DNA from: Henriciella sp.
GTDB taxonomy: Bacteria; Pseudomonadota; Alphaproteobacteria; Caulobacterales; Hyphomonadaceae
Direction: 5' to 3'
NCBI GenBank assembly: GCA_017642885.1
Contig: JAEPOM010000005.1
Location: 1 to 64,000 of the forward strand
Length of the DNA: 64,000 bases
Below the pieces are notes generated by a model that saw nothing but the letters and a program-made list of their open reading frames with translations, was not told the origin of the DNA and did not search any database. Positions within the stretch are counted from its first letter, which is position 1. Each line of letters begins with the position of its first letter. Shown piece after piece: positions 31,847-45,021 of the stretch. A program made the position numbers and the translations under genes.

Positions 31847-31996
31847 GGCCCGCTGATTTCGTTAATGAAATCAATCCTCAAAACTTAATGACGGAAATTT
31901 AAGCTGCCGCAAACTCCGTACGGGTCGCCGTCTTAGGAGGTTGTTAAGGCCCTGCGCCGATTTTCAGTACGGTTAATATATGGGCCGGCTTTGTTA

Positions 31997-33595
31997 ATGG
32001 GATTGGGCAATATGAGTAGAAAATCGGTGCGCTGGGGCGCAGACATCGGATATCAGTCTTCGATCAAGACTTTCAAAGCGAAAGAGTCTCTCACCAAGCA
32101 CGGATTGCGCGGCAAGCTGTCCGAAGGCGATCTGGGGTTTAGCCGCGGGCGAACACGCAAGATCGCTCAGGAAGATGCTGAGGACGCGGTACCGGCCTCT
32201 GAAGCGATCACCGAAGATCAGTGGAGCGAGCGCGAACAGGAAATTGCTGAACGCGCCGGTGGCGTGCGCCGCAGCCTGGAAACCTGGATGAGCAGCACAG
32301 CTGCAGGCGTCCGTAACTATATCCAGGATTGCACGCCTGCGGACATTCATCCCGACCACTTGCGTGAGGTTATCAAGGCCGAAGAAAATGAGTTCCGTCA
32401 CTATGAAGTCGACGATGCCGATTCCGCGCGCGATCACCATGATGAAACCGTTGTCGAGTTGCAGCACTTCAAGCAACAGCATAGCGACCGTATTGGAAAG
32501 CGGACGCCGGACATCAAGAAGAATGTCGAGCAGACACTCGCCATCCTATTGCTGATCATGATCATTGAAGGGTGCTTCAACGCACTCTTGTTTAAGGACG
32601 CGCAATCGTCTGGCCTGATGGGCGGGATGATGGTGGCGTTCGGGATCAGCGCCGTGAACGTATTGACGGGCGTACTCGCCGGGTTCTTTGGTCTCAGATA
32701 TCTCAATCACCCTGAGAAGGGTTTCAAGATTGCGGGCGGCGTGGTTGCAGGGATCCTGATCATGTTCGGGATCATGCTGAACTTCTTTATTGCCCATTTC
32801 CGTGATGCCGTCGAAGTCAGTCTGCACGCGGCTCAGGACGCAGGCTCGCTGGCCGGCTTCTCGATGTTTGATATTTCGCCCGGCACAGTCGTCGGGAGCA
32901 TGTTCCCAAACATTTTCGGACTGGATTCGCTCGTTGCGATTGGGCTGCTGCTGATCGGTCTGACGATCTTTGGCGTCGCCATTTATGAAGGCTATGACAA
33001 GATCTCAGATCGCTATCCGGGCTATGGCCGCGTCTGGCGTAAGGAACGCCTGGCTTATGAGAAGCGTCAGGCTGTTCGCAACGGCGTCCGCGACGACTTG
33101 TCGGACTATTTCACCCGTTGCCGGTTTTGGTTCGAAACGCAGCATACACGGCATACCGCGGCCAAGCGCGAGATCGAAAAATCTCTCAATATCCTGGAGG
33201 CTAATCGAGACAAGGCCGTTGGTATTGCAGCCAAGGCGGGTGATCAGGAGCGATCGCTCAAGATTGCCTATCGCCAGGCGCATCGCCGGGCACGCAACAA
33301 ATTCCGCGACAAGCTCGGCGAGCAGGCCGCCATTCCGGCCTATTTCGACGAAATCGTCACGCCCAATCTACCGGCCTTCGATCTGACCAAGGAGCGCGAG
33401 CAAGCCAATGCCGCGATCAAATCGATTGAGCAAAACCTTACGGCGCTAAATCTATCTCGTGAGTGGCTTGAAACGCATATTCAATCTGTCCAGAAGGGGC
33501 TGTCTTCCATTCAGAAGCAAGTGAACAAGGAAGTCGCGAAAGTCCGTGAATCCCGCATGGCCAGTCAACACCAGGACGACGCTCGGTCGGCCTGA
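31997..33595 (+). CDS. Uncharacterised four-helix membrane protein with coiled-coil tail
   Basis: I do not recognise the family. The product (532 residues from ATG 31997; ATG 32012 would give 527) has a hydrophilic N-terminal region of about 180 residues, rich in Glu/Asp/His with a DDADSARDHHDETV stretch. Four membrane helices follow (roughly TLAILLLIMIIEG, MVAFGISAVNVLTGVLAGFFG, VVAGILIMFGIMLNFFIAHF, LVAIGLLLIGLTIFGVAIY). Then comes a Lys/Arg/Glu-rich cytoplasmic part of about 190 residues with heptad-like helices, ending in a long coiled coil (SIEQNLTALNLSREWLETHIQSVQ). The next gene begins 14 bases later and is clearly cotranscribed. A 150-base leader precedes it. Confidence 0.75.
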   Translation: MGLGNMSRKSVRWGADIGYQSSIKTFKAKESLTKHGLRGKLSEGDLGFSRGRTRKIAQEDAEDAVPASEAITEDQWSEREQEIAERAGGVRRSLETWMSSTAAGVRNYIQDCTPADIHPDHLREVIKAEENEFRHYEVDDADSARDHHDETVVELQHFKQQHSDRIGKRTPDIKKNVEQTLAILLLIMIIEGCFNALLFKDAQSSGLMGGMMVAFGISAVNVLTGVLAGFFGLRYLNHPEKGFKIAGGVVAGILIMFGIMLNFFIAHFRDAVEVSLHAAQDAGSLAGFSMFDISPGTVVGSMFPNIFGLDSLVAIGLLLIGLTIFGVAIYEGYDKISDRYPGYGRVWRKERLAYEKRQAVRNGVRDDLSDYFTRCRFWFETQHTRHTAAKREIEKSLNILEANRDKAVGIAAKAGDQERSLKIAYRQAHRRARNKFRDKLGEQAAIPAYFDEIVTPNLPAFDLTKEREQANAAIKSIEQNLTALNLSREWLETHIQSVQKGLSSIQKQVNKEVAKVRESRMASQHQDDARSA

Positions 33596-33609
33596 AAGCA
33601 GAGAGATGA

Positions 33610-34386
33610 ATGATGGCTCGTCCTAGAGAAAGAGGTCCCTGGTTCTGGCGCGGCGCAATTGGCGTCATGATGTTCTCGGTGATCGGTTTGTTTTCGGTTG
33701 CGGCGTTCAACTCTGCGCCCGCTCTGGATGAGGAGAGTGCGTGTCGCATGGACCGCAAGGATCCTGCCCACACGATCATTCTCATCGATCAGTCTGACCC
33801 GTTCAGCGAGAATGATCTGGCGTGGGTCGATGAGCTGATAGACAATGAGGCACGCACGCTTCCGCGGTTTGGTCGTCTGAGCGTCATTCTTCCGAACAGC
33901 GCGACGCCGTTTGACCCAACGACGCTATATACTCAGTGCTCTCCGGGTAGTGTAGAGGATGCAAACCCGATCCTTCAGAACCCGCGCATGATTGAAGATA
34001 CATGGCGCGAGCAATTCTATCTTCCATTGACCAATACCGTTGGCGAGACGCTGAACACCACGAGCCAGCCAAGTTCACCGCTTTTCGAAGCGCTCTATGC
34101 CGTGGGCGATCGTGCCGACTTTCAAAGCAATCGCCAAAACCGGCGCTTGGTGATCGTATCGGATCTAATGCAGCATTCGGATGGCTTCTCGTTCTATCGG
34201 GCCGGGGCAGACCTTGCCGCGTATTCAGACGCATCTCTCTCGCAGCAGGTTCCGCAAATGGATGGCGTCAACGTGGTCGCACGGATTGTTCCGCGTCAGC
34301 AGTACGATCTACCGATCGGAGAGGTGAAAGCCTTCTGGCGCGCCTATTTCGACAAAACCGGAGCGAGCTTTGGCTCGACCAATTAA
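33610..34386 (+). CDS. Uncharacterised membrane-anchored protein with vWA-like fold
   Basis: A 258-residue protein with one N-terminal membrane helix (about residues 14-34, WRGAIGVMMFSVIGLFSVAAF) and a periplasmic alpha/beta domain. The pattern of the domain resembles a von Willebrand factor A fold: first strand and metal-loop-like HTIILIDQSDPFS, a central SPLFEALYAVGDRA helix, and LVIVSDLMQHS as the following strand. The DxSxS motif is incomplete (DQSDP), so metal binding is uncertain. It is paired with the membrane/coiled-coil gene before it. Its TAA stop interleaves with the stop of the convergent Cys-rich protein gene (34383-34386). Confidence 0.7.
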   Translation: MMARPRERGPWFWRGAIGVMMFSVIGLFSVAAFNSAPALDEESACRMDRKDPAHTIILIDQSDPFSENDLAWVDELIDNEARTLPRFGRLSVILPNSATPFDPTTLYTQCSPGSVEDANPILQNPRMIEDTWREQFYLPLTNTVGETLNTTSQPSSPLFEALYAVGDRADFQSNRQNRRLVIVSDLMQHSDGFSFYRAGADLAAYSDASLSQQVPQMDGVNVVARIVPRQQYDLPIGEVKAFWRAYFDKTGASFGSTN

Positions 34387-35132
34387 AGCCGCGTGATCGC
34401 ACTCACCGGGGCGTCCAGCAACAAAATGTCGCCAAGCCGCTGCACTTTTCCGGTGATGGAGACTGGGTCAGCCACGTAGGGCAGGAGGTCCTTATTGTGA
34501 CCATACCCGCCAGAGGTCATAATCATCAACGCGGTCTGGTCTTTCCTGTCGCGAACAAAAAAGGCAGGTGGAATGCCGCCCCGAATGCAAAGGCTGGCGC
34601 AGGATTTGTGCGTCTTCCCTTGGGCTGGGCGCATCGCGCCGAACCAGCATTTTGTATCCAGAATCTCGCCATTCAGAGTGACGTCCATCAGCACTTCCGG
34701 TTCCGGAAACGCTAAACCCGTGACGTTGCCGGTGGGATCCTCGCGGATCCAATCCATGCCGTCGATAACCGCAATCATGGCATGCGGTCCTCTTTGAATG
34801 AGAGAGCCTTTGACCACGACAGGTTTCCCTGCCAAGGCCCCAATCTTGGCGCTGACACCGCATTTTCCCTGGCAGCCCAGCAAGGCCGTCCGTTCCGTTC
34901 CGTCTAGGTCGAGCGTGCGCAGCATCCCATAAGGTTCAGACGTGGCGATACCGCGCCATTCACGAACGTCGCCCATGTTCCAGGTGCCGGGACCAACAGG
35001 GCGCTGGCGTGCGGCTACGCCGATGCCGACGGCCGTTGTCCCGGTGATGACGCTAAGGCCCGCCGCCATCATGAATCGACGGTCTATTTGCGGTGTCTTG
35101 GCCCATCCAATGAAGAAGTCATCGTCGCTCAT
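34383..35132 (-). CDS. Membrane-anchored Cys-rich protein of the Rieske cluster
   Basis: A 249-residue protein of unknown family. A single N-terminal membrane helix (about residues 21-41) anchors a soluble domain. The domain has conserved-looking cysteine motifs LLGCQGKCGVS (Cys 87, 91), DTKCWFGAMRPAQGKTHKSC (Cys 162, 178) and ASLCIRGGIPP (Cys 182). These could bind an iron-sulfur cluster, copper or a disulfide; the sequence does not decide. A DRRFMMAAG start resembles but does not match a twin-arginine motif. It is the last gene of a five-gene minus-strand operon, overlapping the Rieske-cytochrome b gene by ATGA, which suggests an electron-transfer or assembly role beside that protein (inference). 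Confidence 0.7.
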   Translation of the reverse strand: MSDDDFFIGWAKTPQIDRRFMMAAGLSVITGTTAVGIGVAARQRPVGPGTWNMGDVREWRGIATSEPYGMLRTLDLDGTERTALLGCQGKCGVSAKIGALAGKPVVVKGSLIQRGPHAMIAVIDGMDWIREDPTGNVTGLAFPEPEVLMDVTLNGEILDTKCWFGAMRPAQGKTHKSCASLCIRGGIPPAFFVRDRKDQTALMIMTSGGYGHNKDLLPYVADPVSITGKVQRLGDILLLDAPVSAITRL

Positions 35133-36175
35133 GATGAGGCTCCTATGTCGCTCGGTGCCTGGGGTGTGCCCGGGGCATTCGGTTTTGGATTGACGTACAC
35201 AACCCCGTCCAGAATTCGGGTCGCATAGGTTGCGATCTTCTCAGTGAATGGAGGCGGAGACTGCCCGTCCTCCATTCGATATTGGAAGCCATGCCAAGGG
35301 CAGGTGATGCAGCCGTCGACGACTTTGCCCTCGCCAAGCGGCCCTCCCTGATGGCGGCAAATATTCGATACCGCGGCAATCCGATCGCCATCCCGGAACA
35401 CTGCAATGGCGTCGCCATCTACCGGTCGGATAATTTTGGCGCGCGAATCTTCAATCTCATCAACCTCGGCAACTCGCAGCCAGCCTTCATGTCCGATGCG
35501 ATCTGACAGGCGCAAGCTCGCAATGCTCGAAATCAGATGCAACGCGACAACCGTCGCGGCCCCGGCGCCCAGGATCAGGAAAAAGATGGGCCGCTTCTCA
35601 AACTGCAGGATACCGAGCGCGATATGTGCGACAAGCAAACCATAGGCAATATAGACGCCCATATGCAGCGCCTTCCAGACGCCCGGTCCCAGATTGGCAT
35701 TCCAGAAATCGTGGCTCGTCGCTGCCATCAGGAACATGATGATCAGCGCGATAAAGCCGAGGACTTCGAACGGGAACCCGGAAATGCTGTCATATTGAGG
35801 GTTCGAAATGAACAGCGAGACGAGTGCGTTGGTATCAGAAAACCCATGATACCAGAGCAGCACCAGTCCGCCATGTACAAGCGCGACCAGGAACGTCGCG
35901 ACGCCAATATGCCGCCGATTGTATAGGAATGGTCTGAACCGGTGGGTAAAGCGCGCTACAGGGCCAATGCACAGAATGAAGCTGAGCATCAAAAAAGCGA
36001 GGGTGCCGGTCGCTCGGATCATCGCCTGGATGGGCGTCAGGCTATTTCCCGGCGGTTGCGTTGCGTAAGTCAGCGCCACAAAGGACGTCAGATAAAGCGC
36101 AATACCGCTAACCATCCAGACGACAAACCGCTTTTTGAAGGGGTTCCACTGAACCATCTTGTAATCGTGGGACAT
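35129..36175 (-). CDS. Ferric-reductase-like cytochrome b fused to a Rieske [2Fe-2S] domain
   Basis: A 348-residue fusion. The first 230 residues form a six-helix ferric-reductase/YedZ-type membrane domain with paired heme-ligand histidines (RRHIGVATFLVALVHGGL and LHMGVYIAYGLLVAHIAL). The C-terminal part is a Rieske-type ferredoxin domain with the complete cluster motif: Cys273-Arg-His275 in CRHQGGPLGEG and Cys292-x2-His295 in CPWHGFQY. The predicted path is electrons between a cytoplasmic or periplasmic donor, the Rieske cluster and two membrane hemes. It overlaps the 249-residue Cys-rich gene downstream by ATGA and the small membrane gene upstream by one base, so the set is translationally linked. 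Confidence 0.88.
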   Translation of the reverse strand: MSHDYKMVQWNPFKKRFVVWMVSGIALYLTSFVALTYATQPPGNSLTPIQAMIRATGTLAFLMLSFILCIGPVARFTHRFRPFLYNRRHIGVATFLVALVHGGLVLLWYHGFSDTNALVSLFISNPQYDSISGFPFEVLGFIALIIMFLMAATSHDFWNANLGPGVWKALHMGVYIAYGLLVAHIALGILQFEKRPIFFLILGAGAATVVALHLISSIASLRLSDRIGHEGWLRVAEVDEIEDSRAKIIRPVDGDAIAVFRDGDRIAAVSNICRHQGGPLGEGKVVDGCITCPWHGFQYRMEDGQSPPPFTEKIATYATRILDGVVYVNPKPNAPGTPQAPSDIGASS

Positions 36176-36324
36176 CAGTTCGCCTCCTCGACCAGTCCAT
36201 CGGGGATGGCTTCATTACCTGGTGTTTCAGGCAAGTCGGCAAAGGCCAACGCAAGAAGCCACATGATCAAAGGTCCAATGATCATCCACATGCCGAAATG
36301 AACGCGTCTATGTGCCCGTTTCAT
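36175..36324 (-). CDS. Small single-pass membrane protein (49 aa) of the Rieske operon
   Basis: A 49-residue protein from the ATG at 36324, which overlaps the preceding gene's stop in ATGA. A longer frame to 36375 would begin inside that gene. It has a basic start (KRAHRRVHFGMWM), one membrane helix (about residues 12-30) and an acidic tail (ending GLVEEAN). The stop shares one base with the start of the Rieske-cytochrome b gene. Its size and tight coupling suggest an accessory subunit of that membrane protein; this is inferred from position only. Confidence 0.65.
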   Translation of the reverse strand: MKRAHRRVHFGMWMIIGPLIMWLLALAFADLPETPGNEAIPDGLVEEAN

Positions 36325-36551
36325 GAGACCGGCGGCTCCTTCTGTGTGAATAGCTTGATCAACATGAGTGGCCACAGACCGGCAATTCCCGGAAGGACCA
36401 ATAGCCTGACGCGGAATGGCAAACCTTTACCCTTGGCAGCCGGATCAATGCGCCCGGCGCCGCCAAACACGTAGATCAACCCGACCAGCAGCCCGATCAG
36501 GGCATATATGCCGAGCGCCAGAACCAGCGTTTCCGCAGCGGCTTCGCTCAT
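36321..36551 (-). CDS. Small two-helix membrane protein (76 aa) of the Rieske operon
   Basis: A 76-residue protein with two hydrophobic segments (TLVLALGIYALIGLLVGLIYVFGG and LLVLPGIAGLWPLMLIKLF) joined by a short charged loop (RIDPAAKGKGLPFRVR). It is coupled by ATGA at both ends, to the Rieske-glutamate-synthase-domain gene upstream and the 49-residue gene downstream. No family assignment. It probably forms part of a membrane complex with the Rieske-cytochrome b protein. Confidence 0.72.
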   Translation of the reverse strand: MSEAAAETLVLALGIYALIGLLVGLIYVFGGAGRIDPAAKGKGLPFRVRLLVLPGIAGLWPLMLIKLFTQKEPPVS

Positions 36552-38164
36552 CGTCCAACTCCCGCATAACTGACCCCAGACAGGTCGGACATCTCTCGGC
36601 TGAATGTAATCAAGTCATCCGCCGCAAACTCGGATAGCTTACTATGTCCGCAGGCGCGCGCCATAACTTTCATAAGATCGGTTGAGGCATCAAAGAAGTT
36701 CTTGAGGCGATGCGCAGACTTTTCGATGACCAGGCGAGACACGAGGTGCGGCTTCTGAGTCGCAATTCCGACCGGGCAGTTATTGGTGTGACAGGCTCGC
36801 ATCGCGATACAGCCAATCGCCTGCATGGCCGCGTTGGAGACTGCAATAGCATCGGCGCCAAGCGCCATGGCTTTGACGAAGTCGCCCGGTGTGCGCAGTC
36901 CGCCAGTTATGACAAGCGAGATGTCCTGCCGTCCGGCTTCATCAAGATGCCGTCGGGCCCGCGCCAGGGCCGGGATGGTCGGAACTGAAATATTATCTCG
37001 GAAAATGGTCGGCGCTGCGCCCGTGCCGCCGCCGCGTCCATCCAGAATGATGTAGTCGACACCAACTTCCAGCGCAGCATCAATGTCTTTCTCGATGTGC
37101 TGAGCTGAGAGCTTGTATCCAATCGGAATGCCGCCCGTTCGGTCGCGCACCTCGTCGGCGAAATCCTTGACCTGGCTGACCTCTGTCCAATCCGGAAAAC
37201 GGGGAGGTGAGATCGCCGCTTCTCCCTCTTTCAGCCCGCGAACAAGGGCGATTTTGCCTTTCACCTTGTTGCCGGGTAGGTGGCCGCCAGTGCCGGTTTT
37301 AGCGCCTTGTCCGCCTTTGAAGTGGAAAGCTTGAACCTTCTCTAACTTGTCCCAGGAAAAGCCGAACCGACCGGACGCAAGCTCGTAGAAATAGCGCGAA
37401 CAGGCTTCTTGCTCTTCCGGCAACATGCCACCTTCGCCAGAGCAAATCCCAGTACCGGCAAGCTCAGCACCGCGAGCGAGCGAGACTTTTGCAGGCTCTG
37501 ACAGAGCGCCGAAGCTCATGTCGGAAACGAAGAGGGGAATATCGAGTTCCAACGGTTTTTGCGCGTTTGGACCGATCACCACTTTGGTTTCGACAGGCTC
37601 ATCGTCCAGCAGGGGCATCTTGTGCAGCTGAGCGGTGATGATCTGAATGTCATCCCATTTGGGAAGGTCCGCGCGCGGCACGCCCATAGAATCTGTGATG
37701 CCGTGATGGCCGACTTTGCTGAGGCCATCGCGAGCATATTGCTGGATCAGACCATTCGTCGGTTCTGGATGCGGCGCGTGGCTCGGATCCTGATACAAGC
37801 CGAGATAGTCATCGCGTTGATAAGGCTGCGGGTTCGCGTGACCCCAGGCATTGATTTCGTCGGCGTCGACCAAAATTTTGCCGTCTTCGATCCAGGTCTG
37901 GAATTTCGGCAAGGCTTCTGAGTTTTCATATTCAGAGACACCGCTATCCAGGCGGTAATCCCAGTTGTGAACACCGCAAATCAGGTTGTCATTATTATCA
38001 ACATGACCGTCAGACATTAACGCACCGCGGTGCAGGCAGCGGCCGTAAAAGACGGAAACCGTGTCATCGAACCGGACGACAACGAGATCGACTTCACCGA
38101 CGATGGCATATTCAGGCTGGCGATCTGTCAGATCATCCCATTTTGCCACAGCAATCTTGTTCAT
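36548..38164 (-). CDS. Rieske domain fused to an FMN/3Fe-4S glutamate-synthase domain
   Basis: A 538-residue fusion from the ATG at 38164. Residues 1 to about 110 are a Rieske-type ferredoxin domain with Cys43-Leu-His45 and Cys63-x2-His66 (CLHRGALM, CGVHNW). After a linker, the remainder is the FMN-binding barrel of glutamate synthase-type proteins. It has VSDMSFGALSEPAKVSLARGA, GEGGMLPEE, KGGQGAKTGTGGHLPGNKV, IILDGRGGGTGAAP and the three-cysteine 3Fe-4S motif CX5CX4C (Cys452, 458, 463; CIAMRACHTNNCPVGIATQ). No glutaminase domain is present, so ammonia or another amine would be the nitrogen donor if it makes glutamate at all. It heads the five-gene operon and is divergent from the Rieske-ThDP gene. 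Confidence 0.88.
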   Translation of the reverse strand: MNKIAVAKWDDLTDRQPEYAIVGEVDLVVVRFDDTVSVFYGRCLHRGALMSDGHVDNNDNLICGVHNWDYRLDSGVSEYENSEALPKFQTWIEDGKILVDADEINAWGHANPQPYQRDDYLGLYQDPSHAPHPEPTNGLIQQYARDGLSKVGHHGITDSMGVPRADLPKWDDIQIITAQLHKMPLLDDEPVETKVVIGPNAQKPLELDIPLFVSDMSFGALSEPAKVSLARGAELAGTGICSGEGGMLPEEQEACSRYFYELASGRFGFSWDKLEKVQAFHFKGGQGAKTGTGGHLPGNKVKGKIALVRGLKEGEAAISPPRFPDWTEVSQVKDFADEVRDRTGGIPIGYKLSAQHIEKDIDAALEVGVDYIILDGRGGGTGAAPTIFRDNISVPTIPALARARRHLDEAGRQDISLVITGGLRTPGDFVKAMALGADAIAVSNAAMQAIGCIAMRACHTNNCPVGIATQKPHLVSRLVIEKSAHRLKNFFDASTDLMKVMARACGHSKLSEFAADDLITFSREMSDLSGVSYAGVGR

Positions 38165-38321
38165 TCGAGAACTCCCCTCTCTCTTCAATTGGTCTCGCCT
38201 CTATCGGGCGCTGTTACGACTGACCAATCACAAGACCCCAAATAAATGTGAACGACTTTTGATATGCCATAGCCTACTGTTTTCTATAGGGCAGCGGAAA
38301 GCAAGCGAGGGGAGAGAAATA
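38165..38321. promoter_or_regulatory. Divergent control region between the two Rieske operons
   Basis: 157 bases separate the starts of the Rieske-glutamate-synthase-domain gene (minus) and the Rieske-ThDP gene (plus). It must hold both promoters; it is more AT-rich near the plus-strand start (AAATAAATGTGAACGACTTT, TTTTCTATAGG). No regulator gene is adjacent, and I cannot assign promoter boxes with confidence. The ribosome-binding site GAGGGGAG just before 38322 is clear. Confidence 0.55.
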
Positions 38322-40316
38322 ATGTCTGAAAACAAGACCACACTGATTTGGCACAAAGTTGCGGAAAGCGATGAAGTGGCTGAGGGCCGGGTCAAATCTG
38401 CGACGGCCGGAACCCAGTCGGTCGCTCTCGTTCATTTCAAAGGTGAATACGCCGCCATGGACAATAGGTGTCCCCACCAGGGCGGTCCCTTGGGCGAAGG
38501 TTCCATCGAGAAAGGCATTGGTGACGAATGCTGGCTGCGGTGCCCCTGGCATGGCTGGGACTTCGATCCACTGACCGGCAAACCACCGGGTGGACACGAG
38601 GATACGGGACAGGAAATGTTCGATGTCGATGTCCGTGATGATGGCGTCTATGTCGGTGTTCCCGCTCTCCCTCCGCGCGAACGGACCATTGCCGATGTGA
38701 TGGTAGAAACCATGACAAATTGGGGCGTGACCAGCGTGTTTGGCATGGTCGGGCACTCCAATCTGGGCCTCGCGGACGCGCTCAGAGTGCAGGAAGCGGA
38801 GGGGAAACTCCGCTACTATGGTATCCGGCACGAGGGCGCTGCAGCCTTCGCTTGTTCCGGATATGGCAAACTCACTGGTCACCCCGCAGCAGCGCTGACA
38901 ATTGCAGGCCCAGGAGCGACAAACCTCCTGACGGGGCTATGGGATGCAAAAGTTGATAGTGCACCCGCGCTCGCGCTGACCGGACAGGTTCAAGATCAGG
39001 TGGTGGGCGTACATGCTTTCCAGGACATAGACCTGGAAGCGGCGTTTGAGGCTGTGGCCGCGTTCTCCGAAACCGTGCACCTCACATCGGATCATGCTTT
39101 GCTGATGACCCAGGCGATAAAGACGTCGATCCTGGAACGGGGGGTGGGGCACTTGGTCTTCCCGGACAATGTCCAGCCAAAACCTGCCGCGGAAGGTGCC
39201 AAAGCTTATGGCCCTGAAGGGCGCATGGCGAATTTGTGCGTGGGGCCACCACCTTCAGCGCTGAAGGAAGCTGCGGACCTGCTGAAAAGCGCTAAACGAC
39301 CGATGATCATCGTCGGATACGGCGCGCTGAACGGTATGGAGAGCGTGATTTCGCTTGCTGAACAACTCGGTGCGCCGATCGCCACCACGTTCAAGGCTAA
39401 GGGACAGATTGGGGACGAGCATCCGCTGGCAGCGGGCGTTATGGGACGCTCAGGAACGCCGATTGCCAGCTGGTTCATGAACGAAGCGGACTTGCTGCTC
39501 GTCTTTGGGTCCAGTTTTTCAGATCATACAGGCATCTATGAAGGGGCGCCGACCATACAGGTCGACACGGACCCAATGCGGCTTGCGAAACGCCATCCTG
39601 TCACCGTTCCAGTCATGGGCGATGTTGGCGTGACCGCAGATCTTCTCAAGGCAGAGATGGATCGAAACGGGGCTGAAGCTCAGGATCTGCGCGGCGAAGT
39701 TGCCGAGCGATGGAAGCTCTGGCGTGCCGAGAAGGAGAGCCGCGTAGGTGAAGATCGCGGCAAAGGCGTCTCTGCCGCAGCTCTGTTTGACGCGCTCACT
39801 CGCGCCGCGCCTGCCGATGCGATCCTGCCGGTGGATGTGGGTAACAACACGTACTCGTTCGGCCGCTATTTTGAGCCGACGGGTCAGCAGCGCGTCCTGA
39901 TGTCGGGTTATCTCGGCTCAATTGGGTTTTCCTTCCCGGCCGCAATGGGCGCGTGGGCGGCGACGCAGGAAGAGGGGCCGTATAAGGGCCGGAAGGTGAT
40001 TTCGGTATCCGGCGATGGCGGCTTCGGTCAATACGCCATGGAGTTCACAACCGCGGTGAAATACGGAATGAACATCACGCACGTCCTGATGAACAATTCC
40101 GAGCTTGGAAAAATCTCCAAAGAGCAGAAAGCCGCAGAATTTGAGGTTTGGCAGACCAGTCTGGTCAATCCGAGCTTTGCCGGTTTCGCCCGCTCCTGCG
40201 GTGGGATGGGAGAGCTTGTAAAGACCCGTGAAGAGCTTGAGGCAGCGCTCGCCAAAGCCATTGCTCATGAAGGCCCAGCATTGATTGAAGTGATTACCGA
40301 TGCGGAGCTTTTGTGA
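38322..40316 (+). CDS. Rieske domain fused to a ThDP-dependent acetolactate-synthase-like enzyme
   Basis: A 664-residue fusion; the ATG at 38322 has GGGGAG upstream, while the open frame extends uselessly to 38061. Residues 1-112 form a Rieske domain with Cys50-Pro-His52 (CPHQGGPLGEG) and Cys74-x2-His77 (CPWHGWDF). From about residue 118 a complete ThDP enzyme of the acetohydroxyacid synthase/pyruvate oxidase superfamily follows. The cofactor-activating Glu is in RHEGAAAFACSGYG (Glu171), the central domain is RPMIIVGYGALNG, and the ThDP-magnesium motif GDG (564-566) is followed 24 residues later by NN (591-592). Electrons from a decarboxylation could pass straight to the Rieske cluster, by analogy with flavin-linked oxidases; that is inference. 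It is coupled to the DUF1622 gene. Confidence 0.88.
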   Translation: MSENKTTLIWHKVAESDEVAEGRVKSATAGTQSVALVHFKGEYAAMDNRCPHQGGPLGEGSIEKGIGDECWLRCPWHGWDFDPLTGKPPGGHEDTGQEMFDVDVRDDGVYVGVPALPPRERTIADVMVETMTNWGVTSVFGMVGHSNLGLADALRVQEAEGKLRYYGIRHEGAAAFACSGYGKLTGHPAAALTIAGPGATNLLTGLWDAKVDSAPALALTGQVQDQVVGVHAFQDIDLEAAFEAVAAFSETVHLTSDHALLMTQAIKTSILERGVGHLVFPDNVQPKPAAEGAKAYGPEGRMANLCVGPPPSALKEAADLLKSAKRPMIIVGYGALNGMESVISLAEQLGAPIATTFKAKGQIGDEHPLAAGVMGRSGTPIASWFMNEADLLLVFGSSFSDHTGIYEGAPTIQVDTDPMRLAKRHPVTVPVMGDVGVTADLLKAEMDRNGAEAQDLRGEVAERWKLWRAEKESRVGEDRGKGVSAAALFDALTRAAPADAILPVDVGNNTYSFGRYFEPTGQQRVLMSGYLGSIGFSFPAAMGAWAATQEEGPYKGRKVISVSGDGGFGQYAMEFTTAVKYGMNITHVLMNNSELGKISKEQKAAEFEVWQTSLVNPSFAGFARSCGGMGELVKTREELEAALAKAIAHEGPALIEVITDAELL

Positions 40317-40750
40317 TGTCTACGTCGGACCCATCGCATGTCATGGACGGAATGACTGGCGGCACCTCGCTCGAGCATTTGCCCTTTGGTCTCGATGAGC
40401 CAGTGGCGCGAACGCTGGAAGGCCTTGCGATCTGTATCGACCTGATTGGCGTGGCGCTGATCTTGTTTGGTTTCTTCGTGGCTCTGTTCCGCCTATTGGC
40501 GGGATTGCGCCACGGAGTCGGGCTTTCAAAGAACCTCGGCAATCTGAACGCCGCGCGAACCATCCTTGGAACTTACATCCTGACCGGGCTGGAGTTCATG
40601 ATCGCGTCTGACATCGTTCATACCGTGATTACGCGTGAGCTCACAGATTTGATCTTCGTTGGTTTGCTGGTTCTCATTCGGACCGCGATCTCATTTTTCC
40701 TGGGACGCGAAATCCACGAGATTGAAGACGAGCACGCAGCTAAAACTTGA
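40316..40750 (+). CDS. DUF1622 membrane protein
   Basis: A 144-residue protein with three predicted membrane helices (about residues 36-60, 78-98 and 110-130). It carries the DUF1622 hallmark ARTILGTYILTGLEFMIASDIVHTVI and the C-terminal FFLGREIHEIE. The ATG at 40316 shares its first base with the stop codon of the Rieske-ThDP gene, so the two proteins are coupled; a GTG at 40313 is an alternative. The family has no known function. The genetic link suggests it might place the ThDP enzyme at the membrane. Confidence 0.85.
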   Translation: MSTSDPSHVMDGMTGGTSLEHLPFGLDEPVARTLEGLAICIDLIGVALILFGFFVALFRLLAGLRHGVGLSKNLGNLNAARTILGTYILTGLEFMIASDIVHTVITRELTDLIFVGLLVLIRTAISFFLGREIHEIEDEHAAKT

Positions 40751-40847
40751 TCGTCTTACGCCGTCGAATACGGCGGTGCTCATTTTTTCCTTCACAAGTC
40801 CCTGCTTCCGCCATTAGAGATAGGGACAGAAGGAAAGGATATATCAT

Positions 40848-41321
40848 TTGACGGATGACATTAAGCGCACAACGCTGTTGGTTCGCGATGGTGATCGGGC
40901 GGCCAACTGGTATGAGCAAGTCTTCGGCATGACGCGCTGGATGGATACGCCTTTCACGTTGTCTGGTGAGCAGCTTGCCGCAGGCAAGAAGGGTGACCAG
41001 ACGCGTCTGATCATCCTGAAGGCCAATCACGACCTTATTGGCATGATTGGCCTGCTCGAATGGCTCGATCCAAAAATGGATGCGCCCGAAGAGCTCCCGA
41101 CAGAGATCAAGTTTGGCGCGCCCGTCTTCGTGGTCGCATCTCAAGATGGCAGAGGCGCGCTGGAACGTGCCCGCGCCCTGGGTAGCCGCATTCACAGCGA
41201 ACCGCGCGAATGGTCTGTGACCGGCGCAGACGGCAAAGTGAAGGATATGATTGGCTGCTCGTTCTGGGATCTCGATGGCTACTTTTTCGAGGTCAACCAG
41301 ATCGTGAAGATCCACGATTGA
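40848..41321 (+). CDS. VOC-superfamily (glyoxalase/dioxygenase fold) protein
   Basis: A 157-residue vicinal-oxygen-chelate protein, start TTG at 40848 with AAGGAAAGGA upstream. The beta-alpha-beta modules are visible: TTLLVRDGDRAANWYEQVFGM at the start and FWDLDGYFFEVNQIVKI at the end, with a metal-ligand-type Glu in the latter. The reaction cannot be told from sequence. It opens a five-gene plus-strand cassette with an oxidoreductase, a second VOC protein, a transporter and a hydrolase, an arrangement suggesting catabolism or modification of an organic compound. Confidence 0.85.
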   Translation: MTDDIKRTTLLVRDGDRAANWYEQVFGMTRWMDTPFTLSGEQLAAGKKGDQTRLIILKANHDLIGMIGLLEWLDPKMDAPEELPTEIKFGAPVFVVASQDGRGALERARALGSRIHSEPREWSVTGADGKVKDMIGCSFWDLDGYFFEVNQIVKIHD

Positions 41322-41327
41322 GTTGGC

Positions 41328-42401
41328 ATGGACGGGTTCGCGCACCTCGCCTCCGGTTTTCAACTCGATGATACGAGGCATCAGAAATGGTGTGTCGCGG
41401 GACGACCGGACGGAAATGTACGAGCCTCTGACTTTGAACTCTCCGATGAGCCAATTGCTGAGCTGAACGAGGGCGAGGTTCTGTTGCAGACGCTCTATCT
41501 CAGCCTCGCGCCAGTCATGCGCGGATATATGAGTGGTCTCTCCTTTGCCGGTGAGGCACCGCTCGAGATCGGTGATGTTATCCATGGCAGGGGCGTCGCG
41601 CAGGTCGTGAAATCGCGACACGCCGACTGGAAAGAGGGGCAGGTGGTGCAAGGCCAACTCGGCTGGCAGACCTATAAGATTTCCTCCATGACGGCGCAGG
41701 AGAAATTCCGTCGTATGCCGCCAAATGGATTGCCGGCGTCGCACGGGCTGGGCGCGCTTGGGATGACGGGCCTGTCGGCCTGGGCCGGATATTTCAATGT
41801 CGGATCACCGCAAAAGGACGACATCGTGCTTGTTTCGGGCGCTGTGGGCGGCGTTGGGTCGCTGGTCATCCAACTGGCCGCAAATGTCAATTTGTGTGAG
41901 ACCATCGGCGTCGCCGGCGGCGCGGAGAAATGCGCCCAGGCGGCTCAGCTCGGCTGTACCGCAACCATTGATTACAAGTCCGAGGATATGCAGTCAGCGC
42001 TCGCTTCGGTGCTGCCGGATGGCTTGGATCTCTATTTCGATAATGTGGGCGGCCCAACGCTGGATGCGGTGCTGGATCATCTGCGTCATCAGGCGCGGAT
42101 CGTCCTTTGCGGGTCGATCAGTGAGTACACACTGGACGAACCTTACCGGTTGCCAGCCTATACACGTCTGCGCCGGACCGATGCCCAAATGCGAGGGTTC
42201 TTTGTCTATAATCATCTGGAAGACTGGGACCGCGCCATGGATGAAATGGCGGGCTGGATTCGAGACGGGCAGCTGAGGCCCGTCGAACAAATTACCGATG
42301 GGTTCGAGCACATGCCGGCAGCGCTGGCAGGACTCTATTGCGGGCAGAATATGGGCAAACAGCTCTGTCGCGTTGGCGGAGAACCGAAGTCATGGATTTA
42401 A
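41328..42401 (+). CDS. NADP-dependent oxidoreductase, zinc-free MDR family
   Basis: A 357-residue medium-chain dehydrogenase/reductase of the leukotriene B4 dehydrogenase/double-bond reductase (PTGR, YncB-like) group. Features are LNEGEVLLQTLYLSLAPVMRGYM, IHGRGVAQVVKS, LGMTGLSAWAGYF and the cofactor loop VSGAVGGVGSLVIQLAA. LYFDNVGGPTLDAVLDHL follows. Such enzymes reduce the double bond of alpha,beta-unsaturated ketones or aldehydes. It starts six bases after the VOC gene with no strong ribosome-binding site, so it may depend on translational coupling. The second VOC gene follows 12 bases after its stop. Confidence 0.92.
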   Translation: MDGFAHLASGFQLDDTRHQKWCVAGRPDGNVRASDFELSDEPIAELNEGEVLLQTLYLSLAPVMRGYMSGLSFAGEAPLEIGDVIHGRGVAQVVKSRHADWKEGQVVQGQLGWQTYKISSMTAQEKFRRMPPNGLPASHGLGALGMTGLSAWAGYFNVGSPQKDDIVLVSGAVGGVGSLVIQLAANVNLCETIGVAGGAEKCAQAAQLGCTATIDYKSEDMQSALASVLPDGLDLYFDNVGGPTLDAVLDHLRHQARIVLCGSISEYTLDEPYRLPAYTRLRRTDAQMRGFFVYNHLEDWDRAMDEMAGWIRDGQLRPVEQITDGFEHMPAALAGLYCGQNMGKQLCRVGGEPKSWI

Positions 42402-42413
42402 GGAAACAGAGCG

Positions 42414-42869
42414 ATGTCTGAGAAACCCTTTGTGCGCTTTCAACGTGGAAACTTCGTTGTTGCCGACCTAGAGCGCGCCCTCAGTTTCTACCGTGATATC
42501 CTCGGGTTTGAGGTCGCCTATCAGCATGGGCACAATCCCGACAGCTACTCCATTCCGGTGTTCAACATTCCAGACGGCGCGACGCTGGGCTTTTGTACGC
42601 TGTCCACGCGCGATCAGGTGCGCGTTATGGCGTTGACCGAGATCAAGGGCGTTGACCTCCCTCCTGTTCTGCCTCCCCGCCGCAGCGCCATCGTGCTGGA
42701 TATGGCTGATCCGGATGCGGTGATGGCTGGCGCCCGCGCGCTCGGACTGACTGTGTATCCGGAAGAGCGGCTGGAAACGAATGATGGCCGTATTGGGCGA
42801 GAGATCGGTATTGTCGATTTCGACGACAATCTGGTGGTCATTTACAAGATTCTGGAGACCGCCACATGA
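42414..42869 (+). CDS. Second VOC-superfamily protein of the cassette
   Basis: A 151-residue glyoxalase/bleomycin-resistance-fold protein: FQRGNFVVADLERALSFYRDILGFEVAYQ at the N-terminus and a matching second module with VLDMADPDAVMAGARALG and IGIVDFDDNLVVIYKI. It differs clearly in sequence from the VOC protein at 40848, so the two are not a recent duplication. It overlaps the MFS transporter gene by ATGA. Confidence 0.87.
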   Translation: MSEKPFVRFQRGNFVVADLERALSFYRDILGFEVAYQHGHNPDSYSIPVFNIPDGATLGFCTLSTRDQVRVMALTEIKGVDLPPVLPPRRSAIVLDMADPDAVMAGARALGLTVYPEERLETNDGRIGREIGIVDFDDNLVVIYKILETAT

Positions 42870-44224
42870 CCGACGCGACACCCAAAGACGCCAAACCGTA
42901 TCCGCCTGCCGACAAAGGTTGGATCCTCGTCATCGCGCTGACCACGGCCTACGTGTTCAGTTACGCTGACCGCAAAATAATTGAGCTCCTGATTGAGCCG
43001 ATCAAGGCCGATCTCAATCTATCGGACGAGCAGATTGGCTGGATCCTCGGACCAGCTTTCTCAATTGTTTATGCGACATCCGGCCTGTTCATCGGCTGGC
43101 TGGTCGACCGGGTGCGTCGCACCTGGTTGGTCGGGATCGGGATTGCATTTTGGTCCGTCGCGACGGCACTGTCCGGGGTGGCGCAGAATTTCTGGCAAAT
43201 GTTCATGGCGCGCATGAGTGTTGGTGCCGGAGAGGCCACATTGAGCCCCGCAGCCTTCTCAATGATTGGCGATAGTTTTCCGCCAGAGGAACGGGGAAAA
43301 CCGATCGCTTTCTACACGATGGCCCTGACAATTGGGGCGGCGGCCGCCAGCTTTCTGGGTGGAGGAATTTTGATCTGGGCCAAGAATACCCAGGCCATCG
43401 ACATTCCGATCATTGGAACACTCGCACCATGGCAAACGGCCTTCTTCATGATTGGTATTCCCGGTCTTCTGGTCGCCGCGTGGTTTTTCTTTTTGGGAGA
43501 ACCCGAGCGGCGGCTGACGACGATCGAAGATGACAGCCTCAAGGGAAACGATATGAGCGACGCGCTCGGTTATGTCGCCCGCCATTGGGGGACGTATCTT
43601 GGTTATGTTTCTTTGATCTGCACCATGACGATCATTGCGTACAGTCAGGGTTATCTTCCTTCGACCTTCAAGCGAGTCTGGGGTTGGGAAACGGAGTATT
43701 ATGCGTTCGTCAACGCCACCGCGATCCTCGCGCTGGGACCGGCGAACATCCTGTTATGGGGCTTCCTGTCAGATCGCTGGACCCAGGCTGGTATGCGCGA
43801 CGCGCCGCTGCGCATTTTGATCGCTGGCTTCCTGATCATGGTGCCGACGGGCGCGATCGCGATGCTGATGCCGTCGGGTTGGACGGCGTACGCGGTGCTT
43901 TGCGTCAATACAATCGGGATCGGGATGGTGTCGTGTATTGGCGTTACCGGCCTCTTGTTGATCACGCCTGCCCAAATCCGCGGCCAAGTCGTGGCGCTCT
44001 ACTATATGGCGATCTCGATGGCCGGGCTCTGGCTCGGACCTCCGACGGTGGGCATCTTGTCGTCTCGTGTCTTTGGCGAGGATAATCTGAATCTCGCCGT
44101 CGGCACGGTACCGATCCTGTTTGGTTTGATCCCATTCCTGCTGATTCCGATCACACGTCGCCTATACATCGCCCAAATGAACCGGCTCGATACGACCACC
44201 GTGTCGGAAGAGGCAAATTCATGA
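42866..44224 (+). CDS. MFS transporter, spinster-like
   Basis: A 452-residue major facilitator with 12 predicted helices. Landmarks are FSYADRKIIELLIEPIKADLNLSDEQIGWILGPAFSIVYA and the A-motif-like GWLVDRVRRTWLVGIG. FMARMSVGAGEATLSPAAFSMIGDSFPPEERGKPIAFY follows, typical of the spinster/sugar-phosphate-permease-like branch common in hydrocarbon- and steroid-degrading alphaproteobacteria. Substrate and direction are not shown by sequence. It is coupled by ATGA to both neighbours, so it is expressed with the VOC protein and the hydrolase. Confidence 0.92.
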   Translation: MTDATPKDAKPYPPADKGWILVIALTTAYVFSYADRKIIELLIEPIKADLNLSDEQIGWILGPAFSIVYATSGLFIGWLVDRVRRTWLVGIGIAFWSVATALSGVAQNFWQMFMARMSVGAGEATLSPAAFSMIGDSFPPEERGKPIAFYTMALTIGAAAASFLGGGILIWAKNTQAIDIPIIGTLAPWQTAFFMIGIPGLLVAAWFFFLGEPERRLTTIEDDSLKGNDMSDALGYVARHWGTYLGYVSLICTMTIIAYSQGYLPSTFKRVWGWETEYYAFVNATAILALGPANILLWGFLSDRWTQAGMRDAPLRILIAGFLIMVPTGAIAMLMPSGWTAYAVLCVNTIGIGMVSCIGVTGLLLITPAQIRGQVVALYYMAISMAGLWLGPPTVGILSSRVFGEDNLNLAVGTVPILFGLIPFLLIPITRRLYIAQMNRLDTTTVSEEANS

Positions 44225-45021
44225 TGATCCGCAAAGGGTATAGCGACGGTCCTGAAGGACAGATTCATTGGCGCATGGCCGGTGCCGCGGCAGCTGGAAA
44301 TGCGCCGGATTTGTATTGCTTCTCGCCAGCCCCCTTCAGCTCGATTGCTTACGAGGCGATCCTCCCAAAACTGGCTAGCGGCCGACGCGTCATCGCACCG
44401 GACTATCCGGGACAGGGTGGGTCTTCCGGCAGGAGCGCAGAGCCAAGCATCGAGCAATACACTCGAAGCATGTGCGCATTGATCGAAACACTTTCCGGCG
44501 AGGAGGCGGTCACGCTGACGGGGTTTCATTCCGGCTGTCTGGTTGCGGTGGAAACGGCTCTCAAACTCGGAAAACGGGTGTCGCAGATCGTCCTCGTTGA
44601 TGTCCCGGCGTTCGACCCGGAAACCCGCGCGAAATATCTCCCCGCGGTCGGGAGTCCATTTGCAGTTTCAGCGGAGCTTTGCGGACTGGAAAAAGCCTGG
44701 GAGCGGGCGGTTGTCTCGCGCCTCGACAGCCAACCTATAGAACGCAGCCTGGAGATGTTTGCCGATCAGGTCGCCAACGGCCAACGCCAGAATGCGACCT
44801 TCCACGCAGCCTTCACCTATGATGTCGAAGCTCGTTTCAAGCGTCTGACCCGGCCGACAACGATTATGGCGACGCAGTCCATGCTTCTTGAGCCCTCTCG
44901 CCGAGCGACGGAGTTGATCGATGGTGCAAAACTGATTGAGCGGTTGGACATTCAAGGCTCCGTTCTGGATCAGAATGCGCCGATAACCGCGAAAGAAATT
45001 CTCGACAGTTTGGACGGCTGA
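44221..45021 (+). CDS. Alpha/beta-hydrolase-fold protein with non-standard nucleophile elbow
   Basis: A 266-residue alpha/beta-hydrolase-fold protein: ILPKLASGRRVIAPDYPGQGGSS (oxyanion and second strand region), then the elbow position LTGFHSGCLVAVE and IVLVDVPAFD. In standard enzymes the elbow is GxSxG; here it reads G-F-H-S-G, placing His at the usual nucleophile site with Ser next to it, as in relatives carrying GHHTG. No clear catalytic His follows near the C-terminus (QGSVLDQNAPITAKEILDSL). It may be a non-hydrolytic family member or use an altered triad. It overlaps the MFS gene by ATGA and its TGA abuts the stop of the P450-peroxidase gene. Confidence 0.82.
   Translation: MMIRKGYSDGPEGQIHWRMAGAAAAGNAPDLYCFSPAPFSSIAYEAILPKLASGRRVIAPDYPGQGGSSGRSAEPSIEQYTRSMCALIETLSGEEAVTLTGFHSGCLVAVETALKLGKRVSQIVLVDVPAFDPETRAKYLPAVGSPFAVSAELCGLEKAWERAVVSRLDSQPIERSLEMFADQVANGQRQNATFHAAFTYDVEARFKRLTRPTTIMATQSMLLEPSRRATELIDGAKLIERLDIQGSVLDQNAPITAKEILDSLDG

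Follow-up and report, generated by a model that had tools for sequence, protein, structure and literature searches.

A group of genes in which three different enzymes are each fused to a Rieske domain was analysed in Henriciella sp. (contig JAEPOM010000005.1, assembly GCA_017642885.1), the window being the whole stretch of 64,000 nucleotides. The genes form two divergent strings with 157 bp between them (38165..38321). The minus strand carries, in order, GltS-R, two small membrane proteins, CytR and CysP, with the junctions ATGA, ATGA, TGATG and ATGA; on the plus strand ThDP-R is followed by a DUF1622 gene with the junction TGATG. GltS-R (36548..38164, minus strand) consists of an N-terminal Rieske domain and a Glu_synthase domain of the flavin mononucleotide (FMN)/3Fe-4S kind. 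CytR (35129..36175, minus strand) is a Ferric_reduct cytochrome b with a C-terminal Rieske domain, and ThDP-R (38322..40316, plus strand) joins an N-terminal Rieske domain to a complete thiamine diphosphate (ThDP) enzyme of the pyruvate oxidase/PoxB type. These assignments were made with Pfam and, for ThDP-R, also with NCBIfam. The positions, strands and ATGA/TGATG overlaps proposed in an initial annotation of this DNA were found to be correct.

Pfam recognised the Rieske domain (PF00355) in all three proteins, with scores of 62.7 bits for ThDP-R, 48.0 bits for GltS-R and 59.0 bits for CytR against a gathering cut-off of 20.3. The C-x-H...C-x2-H ligands were intact in 60/60 ThDP-R, 86/86 GltS-R and 43/43 CytR homologues, these being the homologues that passed the length cut (59, 85 and 42 distinct sequences, respectively). 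Because the ligands are kept in every aligned homologue, the motif is not due to chance, and the three Rieske fusions described in the initial annotation were upheld; the Pfam check that it had called for likewise confirmed the Rieske, Ferric_reduct, Glu_synthase, TPP_enzyme and DUF1622 assignments. All three Rieske domains are predicted from their ligands to be loaded with a [2Fe-2S] cluster. The Rieske tree was limited to the three families, the motif used having picked up no other Rieske protein of the genome.

The Glu_synthase domain of GltS-R scored 306 bits in Pfam, with a match to FMN_dh as well. Its 3Fe-4S cysteines (C452/C458/C463) were aligned to those of glutamate synthase large chains and were intact in 86/86 homologues, and the solved relatives found were glutamate synthases. 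No N-terminal glutamine amidotransferase domain was seen in a Pfam scan of the 538-aa protein, and the score against the GltB equivalog of NCBIfam (137 bits) lay below the cut-off of 1047.

A related enzyme with a different N-terminal domain was found in a sample of the class, for which 385 alphaproteobacterial genomes were drawn evenly. In four of these genomes (G022, G305, G314 and G390) a GltS homologue, 67–69% identical to GltS-R over the aligned part, aligned only past the Rieske domain, and two CDGSH stretches stood in place of the Rieske domain (Pfam; loci L097, L121, L122 and L123). A tree built from 91 enzyme-domain sequences separated the two forms with a support of 0.996, and a GltS copy on a Vibrio plasmid also carried two CDGSH motifs. 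A match to CytR or ThDP-R was found in 0/4 genomes with CDGSH-GltS, and CytR in 8/9 genomes with Rieske-GltS (p = 0.007; small sample). In PMC3174974 the fusion of tandem CDGSH domains to the FMN-binding domain of glutamate synthase is termed type 5 CISD; PMC5859297 is also cited here for the CDGSH-GltS form. Pfam gave no CDGSH motif in GltS-R itself, so that it falls outside type 5 CISD. The simplest reading of this exchange is that the N-terminal [2Fe-2S] domain of GltS would serve as an exchangeable electron port, the Rieske form going with Rieske partners.

In ThDP-R the N, M and C domains of TPP_enzyme were all present beside the Rieske domain, and the catalytic Glu and the GDG...N motif were kept in 60/60 homologues. 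The closest solved relatives of the ThDP part were PoxB and pyruvate oxidases, with ThDP-R aligning to residues 3–530 of the 572 of the Escherichia coli enzyme; the C-terminal 40 or so residues of PoxB are missing, and the Rieske domain stands at the N-terminus instead. The PoxB C-terminal tail contacts lipid and quinone. Scores against the pyruvate oxidase and PoxB equivalogs of NCBIfam were 385.7 bits against a cut-off of 742 and 290.9 against 792, below threshold in both cases. FAD is a candidate cofactor and pyruvate a candidate substrate.

CytR scored 54.4 bits against the Pfam cut-off of 28 for Ferric_reduct. Its sequence shows six hydrophobic segments, a loop at residues 75–90 that is strongly basic, and two His pairs (89/101 and 171/184) that were invariant in 43/43 homologues and which we take to be the ligands of two haems. 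Because of the hydrophobic segments and the basic loop, the Rieske domain is predicted to be cytosolic. In the AlphaFold2 model (mean confidence, pLDDT, 79.9) the Rieske part fitted best to the Rieske ferredoxins of dioxygenases (CarAc; TM-score by target 0.8–0.9), which are presumably of the low-potential kind; the membrane part was unmatched among the 50 PDB matches listed. In NCBIfam the membrane part came closest to MsrQ, at 45.3 bits against a cut-off of 130, and membership of CytR-CysP in the MsrPQ system was rejected on this score.

CysP (34383..35132, minus strand) has one N-terminal membrane helix. Its AlphaFold2 model (pLDDT 81.8) predicts a periplasmic pair of barrels resembling the oligonucleotide/oligosaccharide-binding (OB) fold after that helix, and a fold search in PDB returned weak, partial OB-fold matches. 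The motif K-C-x2-G-x-M-x-P...H-K-x-C-A-x2-C was invariant in the 22 sequences aligned, which suggests a putative metal or redox site. CysP shared the locus with CytR in 35/36 CytR loci of the 80 GltS-R loci described below, the contig of the 36th ending inside CytR, and a CysP match was found in 24/26 CytR loci collected later. The two without it (L130 in G319 and L135 in G485, of one genus) led to rejection of CysP as an invariable companion. Directly after CytR in L130 (6257-7384) lies a protein of about 370 aa in which Rieske (57.6 bits) and FMN_red (42.7 bits) domains are fused (Pfam), and apparently the same fusion, judged by eye, follows CytR in L135 (3359-4474); CytR therefore also stands beside a fourth Rieske fusion, here to a flavoprotein.

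Between GltS-R and CytR lie genes for a two-helix membrane protein of 76 aa (36321..36551, minus strand) and a one-helix membrane protein of 49 aa (36175..36324, minus strand). In 10 other loci both are covered, in an end-to-end alignment, by a single longer protein, whose N-terminal half corresponds to the former and whose C-terminal half corresponds to the latter. The two had been taken as separate components of the set; that view was given up, and they are read as one protein split in two. For these proteins and for CysP, no match was obtained in searches of Pfam at E values up to 0.1 and of NCBIfam at E values up to 0.01.

Contigs were scanned with GltS-R, which gave at least 581 confirmed places, and the best 80 were kept, these being the loci closest to the query and not a random selection. 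The closest named relatives were metagenome-assembled genomes of Hyphomonadaceae and Henriciella, in which GltS-R matched at 91–93%. By full-length criteria all three fusions were present in 27 of the 80 loci, GltS-R with ThDP-R in 26, GltS-R with CytR in 9 and GltS-R alone in 18. Where the flanks reached 4.5 kb or more on both sides (58 loci), the corresponding numbers were 24, 16, 6 and 12. At one locus, in Ruegeria arenilitoris (L049, 11714-12897), GltS-R was intact and CysP and ThDP-R were seen as fragments only.

Among 105 genomes of the window's own family CytR was found in 21, GltS-R in 12 and ThDP-R in 14; 12/12 of the GltS-R genomes had CytR and 11/12 had ThDP-R. The GltS-R count takes in two partial matches, G175 (at a contig end, in the genome without ThDP-R) and G176, the ThDP-R count takes in G165, which has two TGA codons inside the gene, G173, which lies at a contig end, and G176, which is in two pieces, and the CytR count takes in the truncated copy of G167. 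In the class sample CytR was found in 18 genomes, Rieske-GltS in 9 and ThDP-R in 15. CytR and GltS-R occurred together in 8, GltS-R and ThDP-R in 7, CytR and ThDP-R in 7, and all three in 7 genomes, with Fisher p values, not corrected for phylogeny, of 3e-11, 9e-10 and 7e-7 for the three pairs. After removal of the window's own genome and two repeats of the same genus, the p values were 3e-7, 8e-6 and 6e-4. A first draw of 152 genomes, some of which were common to both draws, gave the same picture. The genome samples also overlap the 80 loci (L009=G172, L010=G168, L011=G169, L012=G143, L016=G229, L021=G355). The ninth Rieske-GltS genome, beside the eight with CytR, was G074, which is 67% complete; an aminotransferase-like open reading frame, judged by eye, lies directly after its GltS-R (L098, 3277-4461). 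G449 was left out of the nine, its GltS being cut by a contig end with a remaining linker that by eye resembles the Rieske form; it has ThDP-R and gave no CytR match.

The genes were not always adjacent. In G123 and G330, which are of one genus, the three lay on three contigs (G330 is fragmented, with 10% contamination), so that the link there is not one of tight clustering, and in G009 and G143 they were spread over about 66 kb. Distribution of the set was patchy. In G167 (L113, 5134-6480) the window's own site, marked by guaA and two neighbours, retains of the set just CysP, which is broken, and CytR, which is truncated, and no GltS-R or ThDP-R match was obtained in that genome; in G179 (L117) the whole set stands at a different chromosomal site from that in the window.

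ThDP-R was also found on four haloarchaeal plasmids (61% identity), three of which carry GltS-R too (60% identity), with the Rieske motifs intact. The three are those of Salinirubellus, Halorarius, where a sodium:proton antiporter gene lies between ThDP-R and GltS-R and a K+ channel gene is also present, and Halorubrum, where the two genes are 17 kb apart; the Haloferax plasmid has ThDP-R only, and a fifth plasmid with a ThDP-R match was mycobacterial. These haloarchaeal copies point to an apparent transfer between domains of life. Across the four haloarchaeal megaplasmid records (L137-L140) the neighbours included merA-type reductase, DsrE, rhodanese, peroxiredoxin, glutaredoxin-like and antiporter genes. 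Lack of co-occurrence elsewhere had been set beforehand as the finding that would count against the proposed set; co-occurrence was found in the family (12/12 for CytR, 11/12 for ThDP-R), in the class (8/9 and 7/9) and, for two of the three fusions, on 3 haloarchaeal plasmids.

The plasmid search with CytR matched five Rhizobium plasmids and no others. On three of them (L141, L142, L144) CytR-CysP lies near a gene for an acetolactate-synthase-like ThDP enzyme of about 543 aa (the one checked for a Rieske motif had none), and CytR is preceded by a similar split pair of small membrane proteins (71 + 54 aa in WSM1689). On one of the three, CytR-CysP is followed by genes for a sigma factor, DUF1109/NrsF and a chlorite dismutase family protein, and OpgC genes were seen near CytR on the Rhizobium plasmids. 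A similar ThDP gene and a CoA-transferase gene lie near CytR in a locus of another lineage (L100).

Several neighbours recurred that had not figured in the initial annotation. A Na+/H+ exchanger gene of the cation:proton antiporter (CPA) type stood directly upstream of GltS-R in 29 of the 76 loci long enough to show it, with the Pfam assignment made on a single representative; an exchanger search of the Henriciella window genome, run without a positive control, gave no match. An extracytoplasmic function (ECF) sigma factor gene, often with a zf-HC2 anti-sigma factor gene, was found in 9/70 loci with room, beside some GltS-R genes, and DUF5996-type genes in 9/80 loci. Many hosts are marine or halophilic, judged by name. 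Gene context points to salt/ion or oxidant stress, varying between lineages.

The DUF1622 membrane protein (40316..40750, plus strand; 65.2 bits in Pfam) had been counted in the set. Here its gene is indeed TGATG-coupled to ThDP-R; it was present in 4/80 loci only, and DUF1622 was rejected as a general part of the set. Probable start codons were ATG at 38164 for GltS-R, 38322 for ThDP-R, 40316 for DUF1622 and 36324 for the 49-aa protein. The divergent intergenic region between GltS-R and ThDP-R (38165..38321) contains a block, CCAATCAC, that was invariant in 6/6 aligned regions of related loci and is a candidate site for a regulator; a sigma-70 scan of this region gave no promoter-like site. 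A pattern scan located a possible intrinsic terminator after DUF1622 (40759..40778, plus strand; 8-bp stem, T-rich tail), which is weak because 8 such sites were seen in the region against 6.9 expected. Further along the plus strand (40848-45021) are genes for two glyoxalase-fold proteins, a zinc-type dehydrogenase, a major facilitator superfamily (MFS) transporter and an alpha/beta hydrolase, part of which is kept in relatives (L114, L115). Two adjacent genes at 31991-34386 (534 and 258 aa), with no convincing Pfam match, are kept beside the cluster in Henriciella-like loci.

A probability of about 0.45 was assigned to the reading that these proteins are redox modules sharing ferredoxin-type Rieske [2Fe-2S] domains as a common, interchangeable electron port. 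The domains, their intact ligands, the pairing of modules, the co-occurrence and the domain swap support it. The cluster is better seen as a collection of Rieske-linked modules that can be interchanged than as a single machine needing all its parts: the single system of the initial annotation stands in so far as the modules co-occur and CytR adjoins a fourth Rieske fusion, and falls in that each module is also found without the others. On the modular reading ThDP-R would be the electron donor, decarboxylating and oxidising a 2-oxo acid (pyruvate or similar), with its Rieske domain as the electron exit in place of the PoxB C-terminal tail; oxidative decarboxylation by pyruvate oxidases yields low-potential electrons. 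GltS-R would be the cytosolic acceptor, with electrons entering by its Rieske domain and an FMN/3Fe-4S centre carrying out a reductive glutamate-synthase-like reaction on 2-oxoglutarate and ammonia or an amine. CytR would act as a transmembrane wire with two haems, of the type seen in NOX, FRE and MsrQ, the Rieske domain replacing the cytosolic flavin domain, and would link the same cytosolic electron pool with the opposite face of the membrane, where CysP would be its usual partner. Passage of electrons through the Rieske domains to the cytochrome, Rieske-to-Rieske transfer with its direction and substrates, and expression during stress from salt or oxidants are predictions from the proteins and their gene context. 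Near Rieske potentials the reaction of GltS might proceed in either sense, so that electrons may flow in either direction.

Several observations weigh against the modular reading. Identity among the three Rieske domains of the cluster was 18–29%, on which a recent duplication as their source was rejected. Neither partner lay nearby in the 12 well-flanked GltS-R loci noted above, 10/12 of the family genomes with GltS-R belong to one genus, and the Fisher statistics ignore kinship. In the family CytR occurred without GltS-R and ThDP-R in 8 genomes and one decayed remnant (CysP followed CytR in all six of these eight that were inspected); in the class sample 10/18 CytR genomes were without Rieske-GltS, and 8/15 ThDP-R genomes were without either other fusion, one of them being G449 with its contig-cut GltS. 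CytR gave no match at E 1e-40 on the haloarchaeal plasmids, in a search of plasmids and not chromosomes. At the position of the PoxB Phe that contacts the flavin, ThDP-R has Lys.

The pathway could also run in the oxidising direction, with GltS-R as an amino-acid or amine dehydrogenase feeding the membrane cytochrome together with ThDP-R, as a small respiratory branch. CytR does share the locus with GltS-R in 36/80 loci, and Glu_synthase-domain enzymes are related to FMN-dependent dehydrogenases, as the FMN_dh match shows; this direction was nevertheless judged improbable, since ThDP-R and GltS-R occur without a nearby CytR on the three haloarchaeal plasmids and in 26/80 loci (some on short contigs), which suits a donor and an acceptor better than two donors, and the solved relatives are glutamate synthases. 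A better case, though still an unlikely one, can be made for stress repair, in which CytR-CysP would be an MsrPQ-like inside-out reductase acting against periplasmic oxidants such as reactive chlorine, and ThDP-R and GltS-R would belong separately to the same stress regulon without being its redox partners. The MsrQ match of the CytR membrane part would fit, even if below cut-off, as would the ECF sigma and zf-HC2 anti-sigma genes adjoining some GltS-R genes, the sigma factor, DUF1109/NrsF and chlorite dismutase family genes after CytR-CysP on one Rhizobium plasmid, and the merA-type reductase, DsrE, rhodanese and peroxiredoxin genes of the haloarchaeal plasmids. No MsrP-type domain was found, however, CysP matching no known family; the ECF gene is confined to 9/70 loci with room and the Rhizobium sigma-factor context to 1/3 plasmids, and the Rieske-FMN_red partner of CytR would be left unexplained.

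The salt-related neighbours could instead reflect an osmotic or ionic stress island, in which glutamate from GltS-R would be the counter-ion of K+, an antiporter would adjust ions, the Rieske domain would replace ferredoxin input, and linkage would come from gene sharing in salt habitats. The exchanger directly upstream of GltS-R in 29/76 loci with room, the Halorarius antiporter between ThDP-R and GltS-R alongside a K+ channel gene, the marine or halophilic names of many hosts, and OpgC near CytR on Rhizobium plasmids speak for it; it is held to be improbable as well, since it explains neither the co-occurrence of CytR nor the CDGSH/Rieske contrast, and the window genome gave no exchanger match in the search made without a positive control. 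That the genes merely travel together, with no shared function, is very unlikely. Patchy distribution is what such travel would produce, as is the finding that relatives do not all have the whole set at one chromosomal site (window vs L117), but co-occurrence holds in one genus where the genes are unlinked (G123 and G330), two of the genes co-occur across domains of life, the genes are coupled by ATGA/TGATG, and the relative with L113, which lacks the two enzymes, has at the window's site only a truncated CytR and broken remains of CysP.

A more specific and distinctly doubtful form of the modular reading was also considered, in which 2-oxo-acid decarboxylation would drive a glutamate synthase independent of NAD(P)H by Rieske-to-Rieske transfer from ThDP-R to GltS-R (2-oxo acid + 2-oxoglutarate + NH3 -> carboxylic acid + CO2 + glutamate). 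CytR-CysP would then be a transmembrane outlet for overflow or repair, the system would be common to marine alphaproteobacteria and haloarchaea, and the partner network would be set by the swap of the port (Rieske or CDGSH). If the modular reading is correct, it would provide a link free of pyridine nucleotides among 2-oxo-acid oxidation, nitrogen assimilation and the membrane, and a physiological role for short glutamate-synthase-domain proteins and the published CDGSH relatives. The locus offers a testable case of one electron-transfer plug (Rieske) fitted to several different co-occurring enzymes, and of one enzyme that bears another plug (CDGSH) in genomes that gave no match to those partners. 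The combination had been thought to be undescribed, and neither the set nor a fusion of Rieske to GltS or to a ThDP enzyme turned up in the open-access literature searched, a weak absence with most subscription papers and bioRxiv outside the search. Homarine degradation, considered as a possible identity of the cluster, was rejected when nothing relevant to it was found in the literature searched.

Each fusion can be set beside a known system. GltS-R and type 5 CISD have the same C-terminal enzyme, preceded in both by a [2Fe-2S] domain, but this domain is Rieske (2Cys-2His) in the former and CDGSH (3Cys-1His) in the latter. With GltB and ferredoxin-dependent glutamate synthase (Fd-GltS) it shares the FMN/3Fe-4S synthase domain and its three cysteines, and differs from them in the absence of the glutamine amidotransferase domain and the addition of the Rieske domain. 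ThDP-R has the complete ThDP domains of E. coli PoxB and the pyruvate oxidases, from which it is set apart by scores under the equivalog cut-offs, by the missing C-terminal tail and by the N-terminal Rieske domain. CytR shares the Ferric_reduct domain, six hydrophobic segments and two His pairs with MsrQ/YedZ and NOX/FRE; it carries a Rieske domain where NOX/FRE have a C-terminal FAD/NAD(P)H domain, and its usual partner is CysP rather than the MsrP of MsrQ. The Rieske fold and ligands of CytR are those of the Rieske ferredoxins of ring-hydroxylating dioxygenases (CarAc etc.), whereas in CytR the domain is fused to a membrane cytochrome and no terminal oxygenase is found among the cluster genes.

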